From: Halorhabdus rudnickae | Lineage (GTDB): Archaea > Halobacteriota > Halobacteria > Halobacteriales > Haloarculaceae | Length of the DNA: 64,000 nt | Assembly (NCBI RefSeq): GCF_900880625.1 | Contig: NZ_CAAHFB010000001.1 | Span: 1,426,001 to 1,490,000 of the forward strand | Direction of reading: 5' to 3' | In this document: positions 49,657 to 64,000 of the stretch, piece by piece | Layout: each line of letters begins with the position of its first letter | Numbering within the stretch: the first letter of the stretch is position 1 | Translations under genes and position numbers: made by a program | The notes under the pieces: model-generated | The model's database searches: none | Seen by the model: only the letters and a program-made list of their open reading frames with translations | What the model was told of the DNA's origin: nothing

Positions 49657-51885
49657 TCACTCCTCGTCCGCAGTCAGCACGCCGGGGAGGAACCGATCCT
49701 CGTGGGCCGTGATCCGATCCTCGTACCCGAGGAGGGTGTCCAAGATCGACCGGACTCCCGCCTCGAATGTCGTTCCCTGGCCGTCGATGAGGGCGGCGTA
49801 GCGGTCGTTCTCGATCTCCATCTGGTGAGTCTCGTCCTCGTCCCGGGGGTTCTCGTAGTGTTCGACCGCGACGTCGAGATCGAACTCACCGGCGACGTCG
49901 GCGATGGTCTCGGCAACTTCGACGATGGAGATGGCCCGGGTGACCTGGTTGTAGACGACGTGATCGGCCGGTCGATCCTCGGGATCACCGAGGGCCAGTC
50001 GTGCCAGCCCTTCGACAGCGTCCTCCATGGCGATGAAGGGCTTGCGCTGCTCGCCCTTGCCGTAGACGGTCATCGGATAGCCCGCGACGGCCTGAGCGGC
50101 AAAGCGGTGGGCGACGACGCCGAAGTAATAATCGAAGTCAAAGCGCGTCGCGAGTCGCGGATCGGCCTCGGTCTCCTCGGTTCCCGTGCCGTAGGTGATC
50201 GCCGTCCGCACGTCGCTGATAGGGATGTCGAACTGCGAGTGCGCGAGGCGCATGTTCGCCGCGTCGTGTGATTTAGAGTTCCCACACCAGACCGGGTTCC
50301 CATCACGGCGAACCAGAATAATTCCACCATCGACCGTGCAGCAATACACGGAACCATCGTACTGTTCACGACCAAACGCGTCGCCACCCTGGTTCGTCTG
50401 TACACACCAAGACGGACTGATAGCCACCCGGTACTCGCGTTTCGTTTGATAGTTGTCTTGGTCGCTTCGGTCGAGATGGTGGATCGTCGCACCGTATCCG
50501 AGTTTAAGTGCGATTTCCTGTACGTCGTCAGCCAGCCTTTCGTTTGACGTGTAGAACGTCCACCCACGACCGTTTTCGCTTCCGTCACCCTCGATGAGAG
50601 CTTCGAGAAGTACTTCCAGACGATCACGCGACAGATTCCGCATCCACTCGGGGATACGTTTGTCGTCCTTGAACTGCCGCAGATAGGTCGCTAACTGGTG
50701 GTCAGAGAGCTCGACGTATTCCTGCTTGTGATCAACGTGATGGCGGACCTTTTCTCGGTCAAATCCAATTTCCTCGAACAACTCAGCCAGATGTTCGCCC
50801 TCCGATTGATAGAGTCGGACGTTACTCGTCTGTCCGGCCTTGCCAACGGTACCTTCCGTCACCCACCAGCCGAAGAAACGGAGCCACGCGTCGATTTCAA
50901 TTTCGCGCTGCTGCAGTCTGATGACTTTCGCGTGGTTAACCTCACGATCACACCCGGGGAGTTCGAAAGATTCGAGATCAGTACCGTTCCAATCCGGGAA
51001 CGACGTGAAAATGCACGGATGCTGGTACTCGTCACCGAGTCGGTCAGCTTCGACGACTTCCCGTCGATCCTCGAAGGTTTCGTGACCACCCTGCGCCCAA
51101 CTTGTCCCGATAAGCATCCGGTGATTTGGCGTCACCCGCAAGTCGACACGGCGGTTGGAAACGGTCACCATCTCGCCGGAGTAATCGTACGCTTGGACGT
51201 CGGTGGGCGTCGTCCACCTCGTCTCGCCTGTATCGACATCCATCGACATAACCTCGTCCTGTGCGGTCAGGTCGGGGAAACGTTTCCACCCTTCCTTCGT
51301 TAGAATCTCCGTCTCGTCGTCGTAACATTGGTGATACCAGCTGCCCGCCATCGCCGGGAACGGCACCTCGTCGTCCTCGCCCTGGTTTTCCATCGTCGCG
51401 CCGCCCTCCGGGATCGGGAATTCGGGGGCGCCGTAGACGCCGGTCGTGGTCGTCTCGATGAAGTGGGTGTCCGTCAGATCGTGTTCCTCAAGTCCCCACA
51501 GCAGGTTCCGGGTGGCCTGCATGTTGTTGTGCTGGGTGTAGTTGGCCCGCTCGCCGTTGATCTGCGAATAGGGGGCGGAGGGCTGGGCGGCCGTATGGAC
51601 GATCGTGTCGGGTTCGTGGACCGCGAGCAGTTCCTCGACGAAGGCCTTCTCGACGAGGTCGCCCTCGACGAAGGAGAGGTTCCTGACGCCGTGGACCGCC
51701 TCGGCGGCCTCGATGCGTTCGTCGACCGAGGCGATCGGGACGCCGCTGACGGAGCCGACTTCCTCGACCCACTCCCGCCGGGCGAAGTTGTCCACCAAGA
51801 TCACGCGGTCGTCGGTGCGCGTGGCGATGCGCAGGGCGGTCGGCCAGCCGATGTGGCCGTCACCCCCGGTGACGATGATCGTCAT
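49657..51885 (-). CDS. SQD1-like NAD-dependent epimerase containing an intein
   Basis: A 742-residue precursor. Residues 1-186 and 537-742 together make a 392-residue extended SDR with close likeness to UDP-sulfoquinovose synthase SQD1: TIIVTGGDGHIGWPTALRIA, VDNFARREW, SAPYSQINGERANYTQHNNMQATRNLLW, TTTTGVYG and MTVYGKGEQRKPF. Sulfoquinovose synthases join sulfite to UDP-glucose. The catalytic motif is YHQSK: Tyr184 is before the intein and Lys188 (spliced numbering) after it. The activity thus requires protein splicing. It begins a three-epimerase operon behind a TrmB-type operator. Whether the sugar is sulfoquinovose is not proven. Confidence 0.9.
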   Translation of the reverse strand: MTIIVTGGDGHIGWPTALRIATRTDDRVILVDNFARREWVEEVGSVSGVPIASVDERIEAAEAVHGVRNLSFVEGDLVEKAFVEELLAVHEPDTIVHTAAQPSAPYSQINGERANYTQHNNMQATRNLLWGLEEHDLTDTHFIETTTTGVYGAPEFPIPEGGATMENQGEDDEVPFPAMAGSWYHQCYDDETEILTKEGWKRFPDLTAQDEVMSMDVDTGETRWTTPTDVQAYDYSGEMVTVSNRRVDLRVTPNHRMLIGTSWAQGGHETFEDRREVVEADRLGDEYQHPCIFTSFPDWNGTDLESFELPGCDREVNHAKVIRLQQREIEIDAWLRFFGWWVTEGTVGKAGQTSNVRLYQSEGEHLAELFEEIGFDREKVRHHVDHKQEYVELSDHQLATYLRQFKDDKRIPEWMRNLSRDRLEVLLEALIEGDGSENGRGWTFYTSNERLADDVQEIALKLGYGATIHHLDRSDQDNYQTKREYRVAISPSWCVQTNQGGDAFGREQYDGSVYCCTVDGGIILVRRDGNPVWCGNSKSHDAANMRLAHSQFDIPISDVRTAITYGTGTEETEADPRLATRFDFDYYFGVVAHRFAAQAVAGYPMTVYGKGEQRKPFIAMEDAVEGLARLALGDPEDRPADHVVYNQVTRAISIVEVAETIADVAGEFDLDVAVEHYENPRDEDETHQMEIENDRYAALIDGQGTTFEAGVRSILDTLLGYEDRITAHEDRFLPGVLTADEE
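50278..51327 (-). mobile_element. Intein with LAGLIDADG homing endonuclease
   Basis: A 350-residue intein, from Cys187 (CYDDETEIL, block A) to Asn536 (VWCGN), with Ser as the first C-extein residue. Block B is LRVTPNHRML, the endonuclease blocks are LRFFGWWVTEG and LEALIEGDG, and block F is DGSVYCCTV. The C-terminal dipeptide is Gly-Asn rather than the usual His-Asn, a variant seen in some active inteins. The sequence is visibly less GC-rich than the exteins. Splicing restores an uninterrupted YHQSKSHD. It lies in the enzyme's most conserved site, a typical homing target. Confidence 0.93.
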
Positions 51886-51993: not shown

Positions 51994-53799
51994 TTACTCC
52001 ACGGTGACGCTCTTGGCGAGGTTCCGCGGTTTGTCGATCGGGCGGTCGAGTTTCGCGGCGGTGTGATAGGCCGCAAGCTGGAGTTGGACATTCGCCAGCA
52101 CGGCAGCGGTCCGGGGCGAACTTTCGGGGATCGAGAGGACGTGATCGGCGTACCGGGAAACATCGCTCTGGCCGTCGGTCACCGCCACGACCGGCGCGTC
52201 TCTGGCCTCGACCTCCTTGACGTTGCCGATGGTTTTGCTGGCCTGCTCGTCGTCGCCGGTCACGATAGCGAAGACGGGTGTATTGCTCGTCACGAGAGCG
52301 AGGGGTCCGTGTTTCAACTCGCCGGCGGCGAAGCCTTCGGCGTGTTTGTACGTGATCTCTTTCATCTTTAGAGCACCTTCCAGGGCGACGGGATACTGCA
52401 GGCCACGACCGATGAAGAAGTAGGCGTCGCTGTCGAGATACGCCGTAGCGATCGCCTCGGCCGCCGAGTCATCGAGCACTGCCTGGACGTTCGCGGGGAG
52501 GTCACGCAACGAGGCGATAGCCTCCCGGTCGTCCTTGCTCGGGGCCATCCCGATCGAGAGCAGATTCAGCGACGCCAGCTGGGAGGCGAAAGTCTTGGTC
52601 GCGGCGACGCCGATCTCCGGTCCCGCCTTGATGTAGAAAACGTCGTCGCACTCGCGGGCAACCGTCGACCCGACGACGTTGGTCACGGCGAGCGTCCGAG
52701 CGCCACGAGAGCGGGCCGCCCGGAGCGCCGAGAGCGTATCAGCGGTCTCGCCGCTCTGGGTAACGCCGACGACGAGTTCGTCGCCGATCGGCGGCGGTGC
52801 GCTGGCGTACTCACTCGCAAGGAACGCCTGAGCGGGGATCCCGGCAGCGCGAAACAGCTGGGCGCCGTACAGCGCCGCGTGATAGCTCGTCCCGCAGGCG
52901 ACCAGGTGGACGCCACGCGGATGGAGATACGCCAGATCCCCGATCTCGACCTCGCCCGCGAGTTCGTCGACCCGCTCGGAGAGACACTGCCGCAACGCCC
53001 GGGGCTGTTCGTTGATCTCTTTCTGCATGAAATGATCGTAGCCGGCCTTGCCTGTCTCTTCTGGGTCCCACTCGACGGTATCGACTTCGGGATCGGCAGG
53101 CTCGCCCGCGAGGTCCGTGACGGTCCAGCTCGCCGACGACACCCTGACGAACTGGCCGTCCTCCAGATAGACCACGCGGTCGGTGTGTTCACGGAACGCC
53201 GGAACGTCACTCGCCAGGTAGTACTGCCCGACGCCGTCAGTCTCGTCACCGATCCCGAGCACCAGCGGCGAGTCGTTGCGGGCGGCGAAGATCGCCTCAC
53301 ACCCGCCGATCACGGCAGCGACGGCGAAACTCCCCTCTAGTCGGGAGACTGCTTCTCTGACAGCCGATTCGGGATCGGCCCCGTCCGCCAGTGCCGCTTC
53401 GATCAGGTGCGGGACGACCTCCGTGTCGGTGTCGCTCCGGAACGTATGGCCCGTCTCGCGGAGTTCGTCTCGAAGCGTCTGGTAGTTCTCGATGATGCCG
53501 TTGTGGACGACGGCGACCTCGCCGGTACAGTCAGCGTGGGGATGGGCGTTCTCGTCGGTCGGCGGGCCGTGGGTGCTCCAGCGCGTGTGCCCGATCCCGA
53601 GCGCCCCCTCGGGAGCGACCGTCTCGACGGCCGTCCTGAGGTCGTCGATCGAACCCGACTGTTTGACTACCTTGAGGGCCCCGTTTCCCAGCGCGACGCC
53701 GGCCGAATCGTACCCGCGATACTCCAACGTCGACAGTCCCTCGAGGAGGACATCGGTCGTCTCAGGCCCGTGGCCGACACAGCCGATGATGCCACACAT
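51994..53799 (-). CDS. glmS: Glutamine-fructose-6-phosphate aminotransferase (isomerizing)
   Basis: A 601-residue enzyme that makes glucosamine-6-phosphate for UDP-GlcNAc. The N-terminal Cys nucleophile of the Ntn glutaminase is in MCGIIGCVGHG; a GHTRWSTHG motif follows. The C-terminal half has two SIS domains (VGVTQSGETADTL; IGRGLQYPVALEGALKMKEI) and ends AKSVTVE. It starts in a 4-bp overlap with the upstream nucleotidyltransferase gene, so the two form a hexosamine operon. Confidence 0.96.
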   Translation of the reverse strand: MCGIIGCVGHGPETTDVLLEGLSTLEYRGYDSAGVALGNGALKVVKQSGSIDDLRTAVETVAPEGALGIGHTRWSTHGPPTDENAHPHADCTGEVAVVHNGIIENYQTLRDELRETGHTFRSDTDTEVVPHLIEAALADGADPESAVREAVSRLEGSFAVAAVIGGCEAIFAARNDSPLVLGIGDETDGVGQYYLASDVPAFREHTDRVVYLEDGQFVRVSSASWTVTDLAGEPADPEVDTVEWDPEETGKAGYDHFMQKEINEQPRALRQCLSERVDELAGEVEIGDLAYLHPRGVHLVACGTSYHAALYGAQLFRAAGIPAQAFLASEYASAPPPIGDELVVGVTQSGETADTLSALRAARSRGARTLAVTNVVGSTVARECDDVFYIKAGPEIGVAATKTFASQLASLNLLSIGMAPSKDDREAIASLRDLPANVQAVLDDSAAEAIATAYLDSDAYFFIGRGLQYPVALEGALKMKEITYKHAEGFAAGELKHGPLALVTSNTPVFAIVTGDDEQASKTIGNVKEVEARDAPVVAVTDGQSDVSRYADHVLSIPESSPRTAAVLANVQLQLAAYHTAAKLDRPIDKPRNLAKSVTVE

Positions 53800-54992
53800 C
53801 AGCGCCGCACCTCCGCGTCTCCCGGAACGGAGCCGCTCACGTGGACGCCCGTACCGATCCTGGCGTTCGGGCCAACCAGCGTTCCGGGAGCAAACGACAC
53901 GTTCCCTTCGGCACGCACCCGATCGGCCAGTAACGCACCCAGCGGCCGCCCTTCGAGGATCCGGTTGTCGACCCGGACTTCGGCCGGTCCGCCCGGGACG
54001 ACGCTGCCCGCACCCACGCGAACGTCCTGTCCGGTGACCGCCTCGACGAGCGTTGAGCCTGGCCCGATTCGCGTATCGTCGTCCAGCACTGCGGTAGTGA
54101 CCGTCGCATTCGCGCCGACAGTAACGTTCCGTCCGAGCGCGACATCCGGACCGACGACCGCACCTGGCCCGACCTCGCTGTCCGGGCCGACAACGGTCGG
54201 TCGCTGGACGGTTGCCGTCTCGTGAACCCGTGCGCTCTCGGCGATCCAGACGCCACGCTCGCGCTCGCCGACGGTCGGGACGCCGTCAGCAAGGACTTCG
54301 CGAGTCAACTCCAGAAGGTCCCAGGGATAGGTTGCGTCGACCCACGTGCCATCGGTCTCGGCGGCCCCCACCTGCCGATCGTCGATCAAGCCCACCAGCG
54401 CGTCAGTCAACGCAAGTTCACCACGTTCTCGTGGCGTCGCCTCGATCCTCGCGAAGATAGACCCCTCGAAAGCATAGACCCCGGCGTTAATTAATCGATA
54501 GTCGTCGGCATCCGGTTTCTCGACGAGATCGGTGACGACGTCCCTCTCGACATCGACGGCACCGTACTCTTGGGGATCTGGGCCGTCCAGGACCGCCAGC
54601 GTGGCCGCCACGTCACCCTCAGCGAAGCGGTCGGCGACATCGCCGACGATCGTCGGGTCGATTAGCGTGTCGCCGTTGACGACCAGCATCGACCCGTCGA
54701 CGGCGTCGCGGGCTTCCAGCAGGGCATGACCGGTTCCCAGTTGCTTGTCCTGGCGGACGTACGTGATCGGTCGGTCCCGGTAGGATGGACCGAAGTAGTT
54801 CTGGACGCGATCACGCTCGTACCCCACGACAAGGACGAGTTCCTCGATACCAGTCTCGACGAGTGCGTCCAGAACGTGCTCTAAGATCGGCCGGGTGGCC
54901 GCCGGAAGCATGGGCTTTGGCCGGTTGCGCGTCAACGGCCGCAACCGGGTCCCCTCGCCCGCCGCGAGGACTACTGCCGTCTGAATGCTCAT
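53799..54992 (-). CDS. glmU: Bifunctional sugar-1-phosphate nucleotidyltransferase/acetyltransferase (GlmU-like)
   Basis: A 397-residue protein. Residues 1 to about 230 are a nucleotidyltransferase (VVLAAGEGTRLRPLTRNRPKPMLP, VNGDTLI, VEKPDADDY), and residues about 240-395 a left-handed beta helix of hexapeptide repeats (GPGAVVGPDVALGRNVTVGANATV). It resembles archaeal GlmU (GlcN-1-P acetyltransferase and UDP-GlcNAc pyrophosphorylase), which suits the glmS partner. The start is at MSIQTAVVL (54992), rejecting a 15-residue upstream extension. Confidence 0.85.
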   Translation of the reverse strand: MSIQTAVVLAAGEGTRLRPLTRNRPKPMLPAATRPILEHVLDALVETGIEELVLVVGYERDRVQNYFGPSYRDRPITYVRQDKQLGTGHALLEARDAVDGSMLVVNGDTLIDPTIVGDVADRFAEGDVAATLAVLDGPDPQEYGAVDVERDVVTDLVEKPDADDYRLINAGVYAFEGSIFARIEATPRERGELALTDALVGLIDDRQVGAAETDGTWVDATYPWDLLELTREVLADGVPTVGERERGVWIAESARVHETATVQRPTVVGPDSEVGPGAVVGPDVALGRNVTVGANATVTTAVLDDDTRIGPGSTLVEAVTGQDVRVGAGSVVPGGPAEVRVDNRILEGRPLGALLADRVRAEGNVSFAPGTLVGPNARIGTGVHVSGSVPGDAEVRR

Positions 54993-55063
54993 GTGGGTGG
55001 CAAGCGTGGCACGCGCTTGAACGTTCTGGGCCCCCAATCCGCTCTCGCTCGCCCGGTCTCGAC

Positions 55064-56102: not shown

Positions 56103-58808
<2,706 letters not shown>

Positions 58809-58887: not shown

Positions 58888-61752
58888 TTAACCCATGTAG
58901 TCCGTGATAGGGGCGTCGTTGAGGTACGACGCGATGACGTCGTTGATCTGGTCGTCCGACAGATCGTCGTTGAGGTAGTCGTTGACAGCATCGTTGAGGC
59001 CGTCGTCCCCGACGACATCGTTGCTGTCGACGTAACCCGTGTACCAGTCAGTCGGGACATCATCGAGTTCCAGCTCTTGGAGGCTGATACCGGCCGTAGT
59101 CGTCCCGGACACCAGGTTCTCAAGCTGGCCCTCGTTGAAGCCAGTGTATTCATTCCCATCAGCGTCCACGAAGGTCGCAACGACGCGGTAGTCCTCGCCT
59201 GTCGGGACGTTCTGGAAGGTGAACGAGCCGTCCGTACCGGTGGTCACCGACCGATTCTCGAAGGACACGAAGGCACCGGTCGAGTTTTCGATCTGCAATT
59301 CGATCGTAGCGCCCGGAACCTGCTCCTGATTCGCGTCGATGACGTCACCTTCGATGTTACCGGTAGTGACAAGTTCGACCTCTGCCTGATCAGCGATAGC
59401 GTTGATGCTGTCAGTGGAGCCGTCAGTCCGGTACTGGGTGTTTTCAGAGTTCGTGATCGACGCCGTGATGTTGACGATGCCGGTCTGCGTCTCAACGCCT
59501 TCGATCGCCGTGTAGGCGACTCCGTTCGAGTTCGTCTCAACGGTGGTGTTGACCAAGTTGGCCACACCGGAATCACGGATCAGTTCGAGGTCGATCTCCT
59601 CATTCGCGGCGGACGTGAAGTCAGCCGGATCCTGGCCGACCTCGCCGGAGGCGACTTCGATCTGGACCTGACGACTCTCCGTGTCGGGGAGAGTGGTCGA
59701 CTTCACAAAGTCACCCTCCGCGTCAGCGACGGTCACGTTGAGGTCGTAGGCCTGCGCTGTCTCGTAGAGGACGTGCGAGTAGACGTCGTCCTCGCCGCTG
59801 CCTTCGTCACCTGCGATGGTGTTGTTGACGTCGAAGTCGGCCACGTAGGTGTCGCCTGCCAGGCCAGTCTGAGCACTCAGCGTGTTGCCGTTCGAGAGTG
59901 TAGCCTCGGACGAGTTGAAGACGTCGTAGTCGTCCTTCTGGACGTAGACGTTGAAGCGCGGACTGTCGCTGTCAGCGCTGCCGATAATGCCGTCGATGAC
60001 GGCCATACCGTTCTCGTTCGTCTCGTCGACGAGGAAAGCGTCACCAGACAGGTCGGTGATGCTCTCCGCTGCGTCGAGGTTCTGGGAAGCGTTCTGGTAG
60101 GCAACCCACACGGTCGCATTCTCGATTGGCTCACTGTCGGTGCCAACGACCTGGTGCTGGGTGGCCTTGTCGCCCTTCAGGAAGTACGTGACGTTGCCGC
60201 TGTCCGTCAGAGGGGACGTCTCGTTCTGCGCGGACGCGGTGAGCGGCTGATCCGCGATCGGATCGAGGTTGTTGGATTCCAGCCGGTCACGCGTAGCGTT
60301 GTCAGCCGTCACCTCGAAGGTGGCGTAGCTGACGGTACCAGCGCTGACCTTGTCGTAGTCACTGTCGAGTTGCCAGGTGTCCGACCCGTTGATCGTGACG
60401 GACGTACCGCGGTCAAGCGTCTCGTTGTCGATGAAGTCACCCACAGAGACGCCGTGCGTCCCACCAGTCAAGTCGTACGCATCACCGGAAATGTCAAGGG
60501 AGACATCGAGCGTGCCGGAGATGCCATCGTTGGCCTGGTTCTGGGTGACCACAGCGAACGTCTGAGTGTTCTCAGACTCGCCGTCGGCCAGCAACGATCC
60601 CTGGTCGCTGTCGACCGGCTGACCGTTATCGTTCACGCGAACGATTTCGAGGTGCTGGGCATCGAGGTTGGACTGCAGTTCAGGGAAGACCGTCTCCTCG
60701 TTGTTGTTGACCGTGAGCTCCGCAGCACGGTTGTCAGCCTGGAACCGATCTTTGTTGGCCACAACGATGTACTCGACGGGACTGCCGGAGGTACCGACTG
60801 CCAGATCCTCGTATCGGATCCGGTTGTCGTTCGGCCCACCGTCGGCGACGCCAGTTGCGACGACGTTCGTCGAATCAACGGAGCCGACGTACAGCGTCGT
60901 ATTGGCGTTGTCGATCGGGAAGCCTTGGGTGTTGCGGACTTCCGCAGTGACGGCGCCTTCCGTGCTCTGACCACTGACGTAGAACTCGGTCGCCGCAGCG
61001 TCCTGTTTGTCACCCGAGATGTTGTCCGCGAGGTAGACACCGTGGTAAGTGTCCGTATTCGCGGAAATCCCAGCGTTGAGGTAGTCATCGTAGGTGTTCG
61101 GCGTGAACGTCAGCGTTGTAGACGCACCACCAGCCAGCGACGTGTTCATCTGGCTGGCGACCGTCGTGGTCGCCGAATCGCCCAGTACATTGGATTCAGT
61201 ACCGTCCGCAAGGAAGCTGATGTCCGTGTTCTGAGCGGACGAGCCGACGTTCTCGACCGTCACCTCGACGGTAACGCCCGTCGCGTTCGGCGCGACGCGC
61301 GGTGCGTCGACGTTCGTCACGACGACTGTCTGGACCTCGACAGACGCAGTGGCAGCCTCAGCAGTGCTGCCGGAGGTCAAGGAACTGCTCTGAGCGGCTG
61401 CAACATCGTAGCTGCCTGCACTCAGACCAGTTGTGTCAAGGCCACTGAATGGGACGTTATCGCCTGCCGAGAACTGCCCATTGGCTATCGTCGTGTTCGG
61501 TTCGCCTGAATTGAATGTGCCGCTATCGTCTGTGTCAATCCAGACGTGTAGGTCTGGACTTCCACTATCTACCACCACGGTCCCACTGACAGCATCTCCC
61601 TCGGCAACTGGGTCGTTGTCAAGAGAGACGCTGTTAGCGGCTGCTGCGGCCGATCCGGAGATGGCTACCACTCCGGCAAAGACCGACAGCACCATGAGGG
61701 TAGCGAGGAAGGCTGCTCTCGCCTTCTCATATGGTGTTGAATTTCCTGTCAT
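58888..61752 (-). CDS. S-layer-type surface protein with dockerin-like C-terminal module
   Basis: A 954-residue secreted protein. The signal peptide is KARAAFLATLMVLSVFAGVVAISGSAAAA, then Ig-like beta domains (CARDB-like near residues 40-250, a peptidase-associated/CarboxypepD-like one at about 830-900). Around nineteen N-x-S/T sequons are present. Instead of PGF-CTERM it ends in a 50-residue WYTGYVDSNDVVGDDGLNDA...YLNDAPITDYMG segment shared with the subtilase at 62164. The next gene (901 residues) is 79 bp away. It is probably a major surface component, but PGF-type anchoring is not visible. Confidence 0.85.
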   Translation of the reverse strand: MTGNSTPYEKARAAFLATLMVLSVFAGVVAISGSAAAAANSVSLDNDPVAEGDAVSGTVVVDSGSPDLHVWIDTDDSGTFNSGEPNTTIANGQFSAGDNVPFSGLDTTGLSAGSYDVAAAQSSSLTSGSTAEAATASVEVQTVVVTNVDAPRVAPNATGVTVEVTVENVGSSAQNTDISFLADGTESNVLGDSATTTVASQMNTSLAGGASTTLTFTPNTYDDYLNAGISANTDTYHGVYLADNISGDKQDAAATEFYVSGQSTEGAVTAEVRNTQGFPIDNANTTLYVGSVDSTNVVATGVADGGPNDNRIRYEDLAVGTSGSPVEYIVVANKDRFQADNRAAELTVNNNEETVFPELQSNLDAQHLEIVRVNDNGQPVDSDQGSLLADGESENTQTFAVVTQNQANDGISGTLDVSLDISGDAYDLTGGTHGVSVGDFIDNETLDRGTSVTINGSDTWQLDSDYDKVSAGTVSYATFEVTADNATRDRLESNNLDPIADQPLTASAQNETSPLTDSGNVTYFLKGDKATQHQVVGTDSEPIENATVWVAYQNASQNLDAAESITDLSGDAFLVDETNENGMAVIDGIIGSADSDSPRFNVYVQKDDYDVFNSSEATLSNGNTLSAQTGLAGDTYVADFDVNNTIAGDEGSGEDDVYSHVLYETAQAYDLNVTVADAEGDFVKSTTLPDTESRQVQIEVASGEVGQDPADFTSAANEEIDLELIRDSGVANLVNTTVETNSNGVAYTAIEGVETQTGIVNITASITNSENTQYRTDGSTDSINAIADQAEVELVTTGNIEGDVIDANQEQVPGATIELQIENSTGAFVSFENRSVTTGTDGSFTFQNVPTGEDYRVVATFVDADGNEYTGFNEGQLENLVSGTTTAGISLQELELDDVPTDWYTGYVDSNDVVGDDGLNDAVNDYLNDDLSDDQINDVIASYLNDAPITDYMG

Positions 61753-62163: not shown

Positions 62164-64000
62164 TTACTCGATGGGCGTCCCATTGAGGTACGACGTCACG
62201 ACGGTATTGAGCCGTCGATCGGTGAGATCCCCTTCGAGATAGTCCTTGATCGCCGCGTTGATCCCGTTGGCGTCGACCACGTTCTTGTCAGTGACGTAGG
62301 GCACGTACCATTGCTCGTTCGTGGTTATCTCTGTGACGGTCGAGATAGACACTGATCCCAACGACGCGTTAACGGTCACAGGATAGGAGCCATTGGCCAC
62401 CTCCGGCACGTCGAGACGGAACGTCACGTCGGCCGATTCGCCCGGTCCTGGGACCGGCTCTGAAACGCCCAGCAGAGAGAAGTTACTGCCAATGACCTCA
62501 AGGGAATCCGGGATGGACGTGAGCTGAACCGACCCGGAACTCGGCTGGGTAACCCCTTCGTTAACCACTGTGTAAGTCAGGTTCGCGGTCGTCCCCGCTG
62601 GGGCATGAACCTGTTTCGGCCCCTCGATCGAAAGCGTCTCGGAGGCACCGACCGTCAACGACCCGACTACCTCGCCGTCGGGGGTGTAGACACCGTATTC
62701 GACCGTCCCGACCTCGTTTCCGTCGGTCGAAATCGTGAACGATACCGACTCGCTGGTACCGGCCCCGAGCGAGACCGATTCGCTGTCGACTGTCTCTCCG
62801 TCGACGCGTACCTCGGCCGTTTTCGTATCCGAGACGTCACCGGTATTGGTCACAGTCGCCGAGATGTCGACAGATTCACCGGCAGTCACCGTGATGTTTC
62901 CGGGTTCGAGGGCCGACAGCTCGAACGTAGCCGGTTCGAGGACCGTCAGCGTGCTCGTCCGCTCGTCGTGGGGACTAGTAACCGAATACGAGTGTGTCCC
63001 CGGATTCAGATTGGTCGTGTGGAACCCAGGAAAGGAGACTGTCGTACTGCCTCCGGGCGCAAGGGAGACGGACTCGCTATCGATCGTCTGCCCATCGAGA
63101 CGGAGTTCGACCGTCTCCGTGCCGGTTTCCGAGCCGGTGTTTGTGACGATCCCGGAAACAGTCACCATCTCACCCTGGACGACAGACGTCCCGCCGGGGG
63201 AAAGACCCTCGATCGAGAACGTAGCACCATCGGCCGGGCTGCCCTCCACCGCCTCAGTCGCGACGACCAGGCCGTGGCCGCTGCGCCTGTCGATCCCGTC
63301 AGCCTCAATGTCGACCGCGGCGTCCTGCAACCGGGTCCGGACCTCGGCCGGTGACAAGTCCTGGCTCCCATCTTCGAGATCCTGTGCGATCACGAGAGCG
63401 GCTACGCCGGACACGTGCGGAGTAGCCAGAGAGGTACCCGAAACGCTGACAAGCCCACCACCTCTCCCGGTCGTGGTGATATCGACCCCGGGCGCAGCCA
63501 GTTCGACCGTATCACCTTCAGCACTGTAGTCCCACGTTTCGTTCAACTGATCGGTGGCTGCGACGGCGATCGCCCCGTCGTACCGAGCTGGATACGTGAC
63601 TTCATCAGTGGACACATCGTCGTCGCCGGAATTGCCCGCCGCGGCGACGACGACAGCGTGATCACTCGCGTCGTTTATCCAGTTTTGGTAGGAGGAATAC
63701 CCACCAAAGGATCCCAGACTGAGCGACAGGACATCGGCGTCGTCGTCGGTCCCGAGCGTCCCGTCTTGGCCCTTCAACGATGCGTCAATACCGTCGATGA
63801 TCCAGCTGAGGCGCCCCACTCCGCTCTCGTTCAGAACTTTCACCGAGTACACGTCGACCCCGGGAGAAACACCTACGACGCCATTCCCGTCGTCAGCAGC
63901 GGCGACAACGCCGGCCACAGCGGTCCCGTGGCCCTGATTGTCCAGTCCAGCGTACCGACCGTACTCTTCAACCCCGTTGGCGAAGTTCGCTCCCCACGCC
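62164..64000 (-). CDS. Secreted subtilisin-like serine protease, 3' part
   Basis: The frame is open to the window edge; about 612 residues are visible. The His motif NQGHGTAVAG lies at the start of the visible part, the oxyanion Asn in AAAGNSGDDD, and the Ser motif in SGTSLATPHVSG; the catalytic Asp is outside. After the protease domain (to about residue 225 of the visible part) there are two or three CARDB-like domains (GGTSVVQGEMVTVSGIVTNTGSETG; NITVTAGESVDISATVTNTGDVSD) and a C-terminal module WYVPYVTDKNVVDANGINAA...SYLNGTPIE shared with the S-layer-type protein. An exoprotease that is held at, or acts upon, the surface layer is likely. Confidence 0.88.
   Translation of the reverse strand, partial: AWGANFANGVEEYGRYAGLDNQGHGTAVAGVVAAADDGNGVVGVSPGVDVYSVKVLNESGVGRLSWIIDGIDASLKGQDGTLGTDDDADVLSLSLGSFGGYSSYQNWINDASDHAVVVAAAGNSGDDDVSTDEVTYPARYDGAIAVAATDQLNETWDYSAEGDTVELAAPGVDITTTGRGGGLVSVSGTSLATPHVSGVAALVIAQDLEDGSQDLSPAEVRTRLQDAAVDIEADGIDRRSGHGLVVATEAVEGSPADGATFSIEGLSPGGTSVVQGEMVTVSGIVTNTGSETGTETVELRLDGQTIDSESVSLAPGGSTTVSFPGFHTTNLNPGTHSYSVTSPHDERTSTLTVLEPATFELSALEPGNITVTAGESVDISATVTNTGDVSDTKTAEVRVDGETVDSESVSLGAGTSESVSFTISTDGNEVGTVEYGVYTPDGEVVGSLTVGASETLSIEGPKQVHAPAGTTANLTYTVVNEGVTQPSSGSVQLTSIPDSLEVIGSNFSLLGVSEPVPGPGESADVTFRLDVPEVANGSYPVTVNASLGSVSISTVTEITTNEQWYVPYVTDKNVVDANGINAAIKDYLEGDLTDRRLNTVVTSYLNGTPIE

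Follow-up and report, generated by a model that had tools for sequence, protein, structure and literature searches.

In a 64,000-nucleotide stretch of the Halorhabdus rudnickae genome (the window), three adjacent genes encode a subtilase, a surface-layer (S-layer)-type protein of 954 amino acids (aa), and a 901-aa S-layer glycoprotein with a PGF-CTERM anchoring signal (Table 1). The first two proteins end in the same small module, and the third begins with a domain here called ADR. We consider it probable on balance that the module, as a dockerin-like plug, fits the ADR domain, as a cohesin-like socket, and that the two tether cargo to the S-layer; we infer the binding between them. The system is most likely a degenerate, probably calcium-independent, cohesin-dockerin-like one. 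In this model, the module would be a shortened dockerin-like helical hairpin that docks on the cohesin-like N-terminal domain of the next gene's product, the S-layer glycoprotein anchored by PGF-CTERM, and the anchorless 954-aa protein and subtilase would thereby be held noncovalently on the S-layer. The two pseudo-symmetric halves of the module may offer equivalent faces, as in dual-binding dockerins. In other haloarchaea, the same parts would hold multicopper oxidases and peptidases on PGF-CTERM scaffolds carrying up to five receptor domains.

The two window tails (...DWYTGYVDSNDVVGDDGLNDAVNDYLNDDLSDDQINDVIASYLNDAPITDYMG-stop in the 954-aa protein and ...QWYVPYVTDKNVVDANGINAAIKDYLEGDLTDRRLNTVVTSYLNGTPIE-stop in the subtilase) are homologous. 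They align without gaps with 23 of 48 residues identical (48%; BLASTP E = 4e-16), which bears out the claim of an earlier note that a C-terminal module is shared by the two proteins. Both copies are encoded on the minus strand; the plus-strand frame of 58888-59050 is not the coding one. The same note had stated that neither protein carries PGF-CTERM, and a domain search agreed, with no match in the 954-aa protein or the subtilase and a match in the 901-aa protein. In a Pfam search, neither window tail matched any family above noise. A two-row profile run against the 3.36-Mb genome returned exactly two strong copies, both of them the window tails, and a third match at the level of noise (E = 0.275). 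With only two scoring copies genome-wide, the resemblance of the tails is neither due to chance nor a common tail of this organism. With a four-row profile, 62 of the 392 genomes searched within the order were found to contain the module (E ≤ 0.01), with 1 to 17 matches per module-bearing genome (17 in G276). Of 39 hit lines from the fetched loci, 36 end at most 8 aa from the stop codon; the exceptions are two that each form the first copy of a tandem pair and one in an internal position. C-terminal copies thus occur on other secreted proteins in many haloarchaea, so the finding that would have refuted the note's claim, their absence there, was not obtained. A consensus drawn by eye runs approximately Y-x-N-x-[DE]-G-x-V-D-x-x-G-L-x-x-A-[IV]-x-D-[WY]-x-x-G-x-[IL]-x-x-x-x-[LI]-x-x-V-[IV]-x-x-[WY]-x-x-G-x-P-[VI], and the tail has neither a hydrophobic stretch nor a basic end. 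Subtilases are carriers in our genome, in the same-genus genome G004, and in Halolamina pelagica (G224). Three scans of viral contigs found no relatives, and the scaffold, partner, and module queries each matched one plasmid record.

An EF-hand pair is the probable ancestor of the module. A profile of 38 modules matched EF-hand chains in the PDB (best E = 7.2e-5), and 8 of the 10 relatives tried gave Pfam EF-hand matches, all below the Pfam cut-off; the window copies alone gave none. Divergent members keep a full EF-hand loop (YDANDDGDISTDEL in G024 and YDTNDNGQIDINEV in G267), and one full loop is kept in the relatives at loci L048, L065, L068, and L080. The first loop of either window copy lacks one residue and has G in place of the E12 ligand, and the second unit has no loop. 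Neither copy therefore has the pair of intact calcium-binding F-hand loops (Dx[DN]xDGxIxxxE-like) of a type I dockerin, and the proposed bond between the module and the ADR domain perhaps needs no calcium, as the lost loop residues suggest. Neither copy matched Dockerin type I (PF00404), and nothing in the whole genome exceeded the cut-off for that family (best, 13.1 versus 22.9 bits). True dockerin membership was rejected because these profile tests fail. Like type I dockerins, the module is small, helical, EF-hand derived, and C-terminal on enzymes and surface proteins, with two pseudo-symmetric halves that have recognition positions in common and with lineage-specific types. It differs from them in its lack of a Pfam match, in a first loop lacking the ligand glutamate and one residue, in the absence of the second loop, and in a unit of 17 aa, compared with ~22 to 24 aa in dockerins.

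Two helical units of 13 residues, set 17 residues apart, make up the module. Their type differs between genomes, while the two halves within a module remain alike: LMELSxxAxAY occurs twice in G055, QDELTxxAIAF twice in G148, and TTxFLxxVxxW twice, with one exchange, in G068. To quantify this, we aligned 38 modules (the two from the window and 36 of 68 listed tails, omitting near-duplicates, MMPL rows, tails added by eye, and some others). The two halves of a module share 5.47 of 13 residues, versus 2.94 (standard deviation [SD], 0.22) when pairing is shuffled, and none of 20,000 shuffles reached the observed value. The result was similar for 24 nonredundant modules (5.33 versus 2.71) and for 23 nonredundant, exclusively profile-selected modules drawn from all profile-selected C-terminal matches of the fetched loci, 65 of 67 being usable (5.22 versus 2.69; SD, 0.28; 0 of 20,000 shuffles). 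Common ancestry alone should not raise the likeness of a module's own halves over that between modules; recent duplication or selection can. Codons at identical half residues were the same in 92 of 184 cases, and a fraction of 0.503 is expected from codon usage, so recent duplication is not the cause of the symmetry. By EF-loop numbering, excess identity (seen versus expected) falls at positions 10 (15 versus 3.9), 14 (12 versus 2.7), 17 (14 versus 5.5), 18 (8 versus 2.0), and 20 (19 versus 9.0). Among the dockerin positions that matter for specificity are 17, 18, and 22. A dockerin study describes positions 10 and 11 of each repeat as setting specificity, with the symmetry permitting two binding modes (PMC8063739). 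The internal two-fold symmetry and duplicated recognition residues of dockerins are thus found in the module, and together with its EF-hand relatives, its strict C-terminal place, and its enzyme carriers (subtilases and multicopper oxidases), they uphold the dockerin resemblance that had been noticed from the two tails.

The earlier reading that no cohesin is seen is probably wrong, since a candidate cohesin-like domain starts the adjacent S-layer glycoprotein. The TIGR04216 match in the 901-aa protein begins at aa 198, and the ADR domain is an extra element directly after the signal peptide. Named after its first residues, it was found by iterated searches of the fetched loci. An AlphaFold2 model of the window ADR domain built from six sequences had a predicted local distance difference test score (pLDDT) of 70 and a predicted template modeling score of 0.64, and when the model was compared with the PDB using Foldseek, 11 of the 12 chains matched at E ≤ 1e-3 were cohesins, among them the noncellulosomal cohesin 2xdh from the archaeon Archaeoglobus fulgidus. 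To judge from this model, the ADR domain is likely to have a cohesin-like fold, although for the nine-stranded cohesin jelly roll the Foldseek ranking is offset by the VIA-align scores given below. Cohesins are carried, often in tandem, by anchored scaffolds, and ADR domains with their cohesin-like modeled fold likewise occur on surface-anchored proteins, singly here and in arrays of two to five elsewhere. They differ from the cohesins of scaffoldins in their length of ~110 aa, in scoring below the Pfam cut-off, in standing at the N terminus of the S-layer glycoprotein itself, and in belonging to proteins anchored by PGF-CTERM/archaeosortase.

The genes for the two parts lie side by side in several haloarchaea. 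A module gene sits directly upstream of a PGF-CTERM gene with an ADR domain in nine genomes from six families (our own, G004, G224, G148, G225, G169, G024, G055, and G145), and in these the ADR domain occupies the same place in the PGF-CTERM S-layer protein that follows the module-bearing partner. Tandem ADR arrays on PGF-CTERM proteins comprise five domains in G384 and G248, four in G189, and two in G118, G308, and G043; G067 also has five, in a gene inside which the contig ends, and PGF-CTERM was assigned by NCBIfam at locus L156. Genes beside the tandem arrays bear the module, and G318 resembles G248 by match coordinates. The cargo beside ADR scaffolds includes multicopper oxidases (G384 and G230) and an S51 peptidase on plasmid NZ_CP101160.1 of Natronosalvus amylolyticus (G118). 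In RefSeq, the Natronosalvus pair is named "CARDB domain-containing protein" and "cyanophycinase," labels under which the system is invisible to present annotation.

Control loci gave a different picture. Among 52 PGF-CTERM frames in 40 loci, a clear ADR domain and a module were found only in L110, where both occur together, and three weak partial ADR matches (E, 0.0007 to 0.036) were found in other frames; these loci were taken for a haloarchaeal surface signal peptide, as high-scoring halo_sig_pep matches from distinct genomes in a score-sorted listing with some genomes skipped, and are not a random sample. We also compared 95 ADR frames with the 113 best-scoring halo_sig_pep matches listed. 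A module match lay within 6 kb of 30 of 45 ADR frames outside the MMPL size (1,115 to 1,375 aa, defined by length alone), versus 6 of the 113 halo_sig_pep matches. At the genome level, an ADR domain outside the MMPL size was present in 24 of 61 module genomes (of 62 in all) versus 8 of 331 others (p = 2e-15), an association inflated by an ADR profile that was built mostly from module loci.

A comparison within the genus points in the same direction. The three genes recur in synteny in G004, followed by the same downstream gene (82% identity). The two subtilases are 46% identical over 674 aa, and the alignment stops before the module. The subtilase and the partner protein of G004 both have FQDVLxxIxxY-type halves, with 17 of 26 half residues identical to each other, and our own pair shares 12 of 26, compared with only 6 and 8 of 26 between orthologues across the two species. 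Unrelated cargo proteins in one species thus share a module type that differs from that of their own orthologues. Such sharing is expected if both cargo proteins bind one receptor that changed. A broader proposal, on which we are evenly divided, is that haloarchaea have a cohesin-dockerin-like attachment code freed of calcium dependence, in which a main S-layer glycoprotein or a PGF-CTERM scaffold with as many as five receptor domains is matched to anchorless cargo (S-layer partners and enzymes) and recognition types switch in concert among the unrelated cargo proteins of a species, as the comparison of G004 with our genome illustrates.

The inflation of the genome-level association is one of several points that weigh against docking of the module on a cohesin-like receptor. 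In VIA-align, cohesins scored Z values of 8.8 to 10.7, and the pilin BcpA (10.9), an integrin (9.7), and YcnI domains fell in the same range. Pfam Cohesin (PF00963) matched at 14.8 bits (E = 0.034), below its cut-off of 24.1, any sub-threshold match was seen in 2 of 25 ADR members, and a search of our own genome with this family gave one match (E = 0.199). An ADR profile had no significant match among PDB sequences. True cohesin membership was rejected because the profile test fails. The fairer figure comes from the 20 genomes whose domains were outside the ADR profile: 13 had the module in cis or in a nearby gene and 1 gave a weak case, leaving 4 in which none was found (one on a 5-kb contig) and 2 that were not inspected. 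In at least five loci (G044, G267, G185, G163, and G068), a module-type partner lies close to a PGF/AGF protein, and ADR was undetected in that protein, apart from a match at E = 0.009 in G267. A Mantel test of module against ADR similarity in 19 genomes, with the module halves of G225 set by hand because of an insertion, was nonsignificant (r = 0.05; 1,739 of 5,000 shuffles as high), with r = 0.01 for pairs from different families; several of the closest module-ADR pairs are alike in both parts, which was seen after the test and not counted. A model of a natural fusion from Bipolaricaulota (L136) was weak, and its immunoglobulin (Ig) part resembles adaptin ears, not cohesins. The module part is unreliable (pLDDT 54), too poor for docking to be read from this model.

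The alternative that survives best, which we nevertheless think unlikely, is that the module is a structural hairpin acting in cis to cap or stabilize Ig-like domains of the same chain, as an X-module/dockerin pair might do, and that the gene pairs reflect clustering of surface-protein building blocks. An ADR domain and a module do occur in one chain, with the module last, in G169 (L079), G024 (L050), G233 (L056), G288 (L145), G276 (L147), and G396 (L154), and same-chain pairs are also found in MMPL-type proteins (L059 and L085-L088) and in Bipolaricaulota (L136/L137). However, cis fusion is also expected of interacting parts, the window module proteins have no ADR domain and the window ADR protein has no module, and module-free PGF-CTERM scaffolds with two to five ADR domains sit beside module genes.

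Contacts of the module within the S-layer lattice or in dimers (module-module or module-glycan), with the ADR domain not a receptor, are more improbable still. The mirror symmetry suits a symmetric self-contact, and the lack of module-ADR covariation in the Mantel test and the five partner loci without a clearly detected ADR domain fit such a contact, but the genes for the module and the ADR domain are associated, and the module is found on enzymes that are not S-layer proteins. Least probable of all is a sorting or secretion tag for a dedicated processing enzyme, alternative to PGF-CTERM, which would account for the strict C-terminal place and the large number of unrelated proteins that carry the module in a genome (G276 has 17 matches) but not for tandem and internal copies, EF-hand ancestry, a tail with no hydrophobic stretch or basic end, or a conserved mirror symmetry that known sorting signals do not show; no search aimed at a co-occurring protease was made. 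Tandem copies, EF-hand ancestry, and the lack of a hydrophobic or basic tail led us to reject a secretion or sorting signal as the principal explanation. When the module was first noticed, it was suggested to be an alternative surface attachment or secretion signal. Attachment is the best reading; secretion is disfavored, given the ordinary signal peptides of the window proteins, the tail without hydrophobic or basic character, and the tandem and internal copies. Module proteins would be retained at the surface by binding to the ADR domain.

The usual view of the haloarchaeal S-layer is that of a single anchored glycoprotein, and, to our knowledge, how haloarchaea retain anchorless secreted proteins at the surface is largely open. 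If the docking model holds, some haloarchaeal S-layers would be coats of two components linked through a dockerin-like bond, and the S-layer would serve as a board on which proteases and oxidases dock. With recognition positions that are symmetric and lineage specific, the specificity code can be tested directly, and a cohesin-dockerin pair that tolerates salt and needs no calcium would have practical use as a tool. PGF-CTERM/archaeosortase A provides covalent lipid anchoring of a hydrophobic tail. The module resembles this route in giving haloarchaeal proteins a putative C-terminal means of surface retention, but it has none of its features (PGF motif, hydrophobic helix, and basic end).

Cohesin-dockerin systems are known from other archaea. 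Anaerobic methanotrophic (ANME) archaea are described as having scaffold-like proteins with up to five cohesins together with S-layer/dockerin proteins (PMC9012536). The A. fulgidus and ANME systems are, like the one proposed here, archaeal and noncellulosomal, but their domains match public domain models and the haloarchaeal parts do not. Dockerin type I domains have been assigned to a Halobacterium subtilase (NP_280653.1; PMC2605481) and to a natronoarchaeal GH26 (PMC10963439). These are also secreted haloarchaeal enzymes with dockerin-like tails, but in the available portions of both papers they are annotated by domain models only and read as substrate binding or cellulose related, with no cohesin partner named. 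In the open-access literature, a scope outside which falls the survey of Peer et al. (2009) that could mention haloarchaea, we found no haloarchaeal receptor in print and no paper joining cohesin, dockerin, and "haloarchaeal"; "cohesin," "dockerin," and "haloarchaea" co-occur only in a paper apparently on climate biotechnology.

Table 1. Features of the three-gene row, in window coordinates
Feature	Coordinates	Strand	Basis or remark
S-layer-type partner protein, 954 aa	58888..61752	-	Translation, domain search
Subtilase (S8) with CARDB domains and C-terminal module	62164..64000	-	Runs off window
PGF-CTERM S-layer glycoprotein (HVO_2072-like), 901 aa	56103..58808	-	Translation, domain search
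PGF-CTERM archaeosortase signal, aa 873-900 of 901-aa protein	56109..56192	-	Profile match
Dockerin-like module of 954-aa protein, aa ~901-954, stop codon included	58888..59052	-	Translation, alignment
First 13-aa helical half-unit VGDDGLNDAVNDY of 954-aa protein's module	58975..59013	-	Alignment, half-symmetry test
Second 13-aa helical half-unit LSDDQINDVIASY of 954-aa protein's module	58924..58962	-	Alignment, half-symmetry test
Dockerin-like module at subtilase C terminus, stop codon included	62164..62328	-	Translation, alignment
Candidate receptor ADR domain (Ig-like, cohesin-like), aa 41-150 of 901-aa protein	58359..58688	-	

The 954-aa protein combines a haloarchaeal surface-glycoprotein signal peptide, a carboxypeptidase-regulatory-like domain, and the module, and lacks PGF-CTERM; the 901-aa gene lies 79 bp downstream of its gene. 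The complete subtilase has 797 aa (L006:13164-15557). Ordinary signal peptides were found by search in the 954-aa and 901-aa proteins and by reading in the subtilase. Outside the window, a divergently oriented gene for a 506-aa secreted protein lies shortly upstream of the subtilase (L006:15761-17281), with no module seen.

Several other proteins carry the module or parts like it. A very large protein of G276 (L053:10594-17001) terminates in two tandem modules. In G045 (L074:5417-14764), each of four tandem genes closes with a two-fold helical repeat of the DDGE[VM]I type at a longer spacing of 23 aa, and this repeat may represent a further type of the module. In many haloarchaea, MMPL/RND-like proteins of the membrane, ~1,200 aa long (L059 and L085-L088), end with an ADR-like domain directly before a module-like tail. 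Proteins from metagenome-assembled genomes of Bipolaricaulota/Atribacteria (L136:9083-11317 and L137:6276-8510) carry two cis pairs in which a module-like helical repeat follows an ADR-like Ig domain, so the origin of the pairing may long predate haloarchaea.

A promoter and terminator scan gave nothing useful, the consensus used being bacterial. Adjoining the S-layer genes are genes that, from a reading of their sequence, are GlmS-like and nucleotidyltransferase (GlmU-like) (51994-55037, minus strand), which suggests a surface-sugar cluster. Beyond them, a 742-aa NAD-dependent sugar epimerase frame (49657-51885, minus strand) has an apparent intein-like insert in mid-frame (CYDDETEILTKEGW... 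to ...VWCGN).

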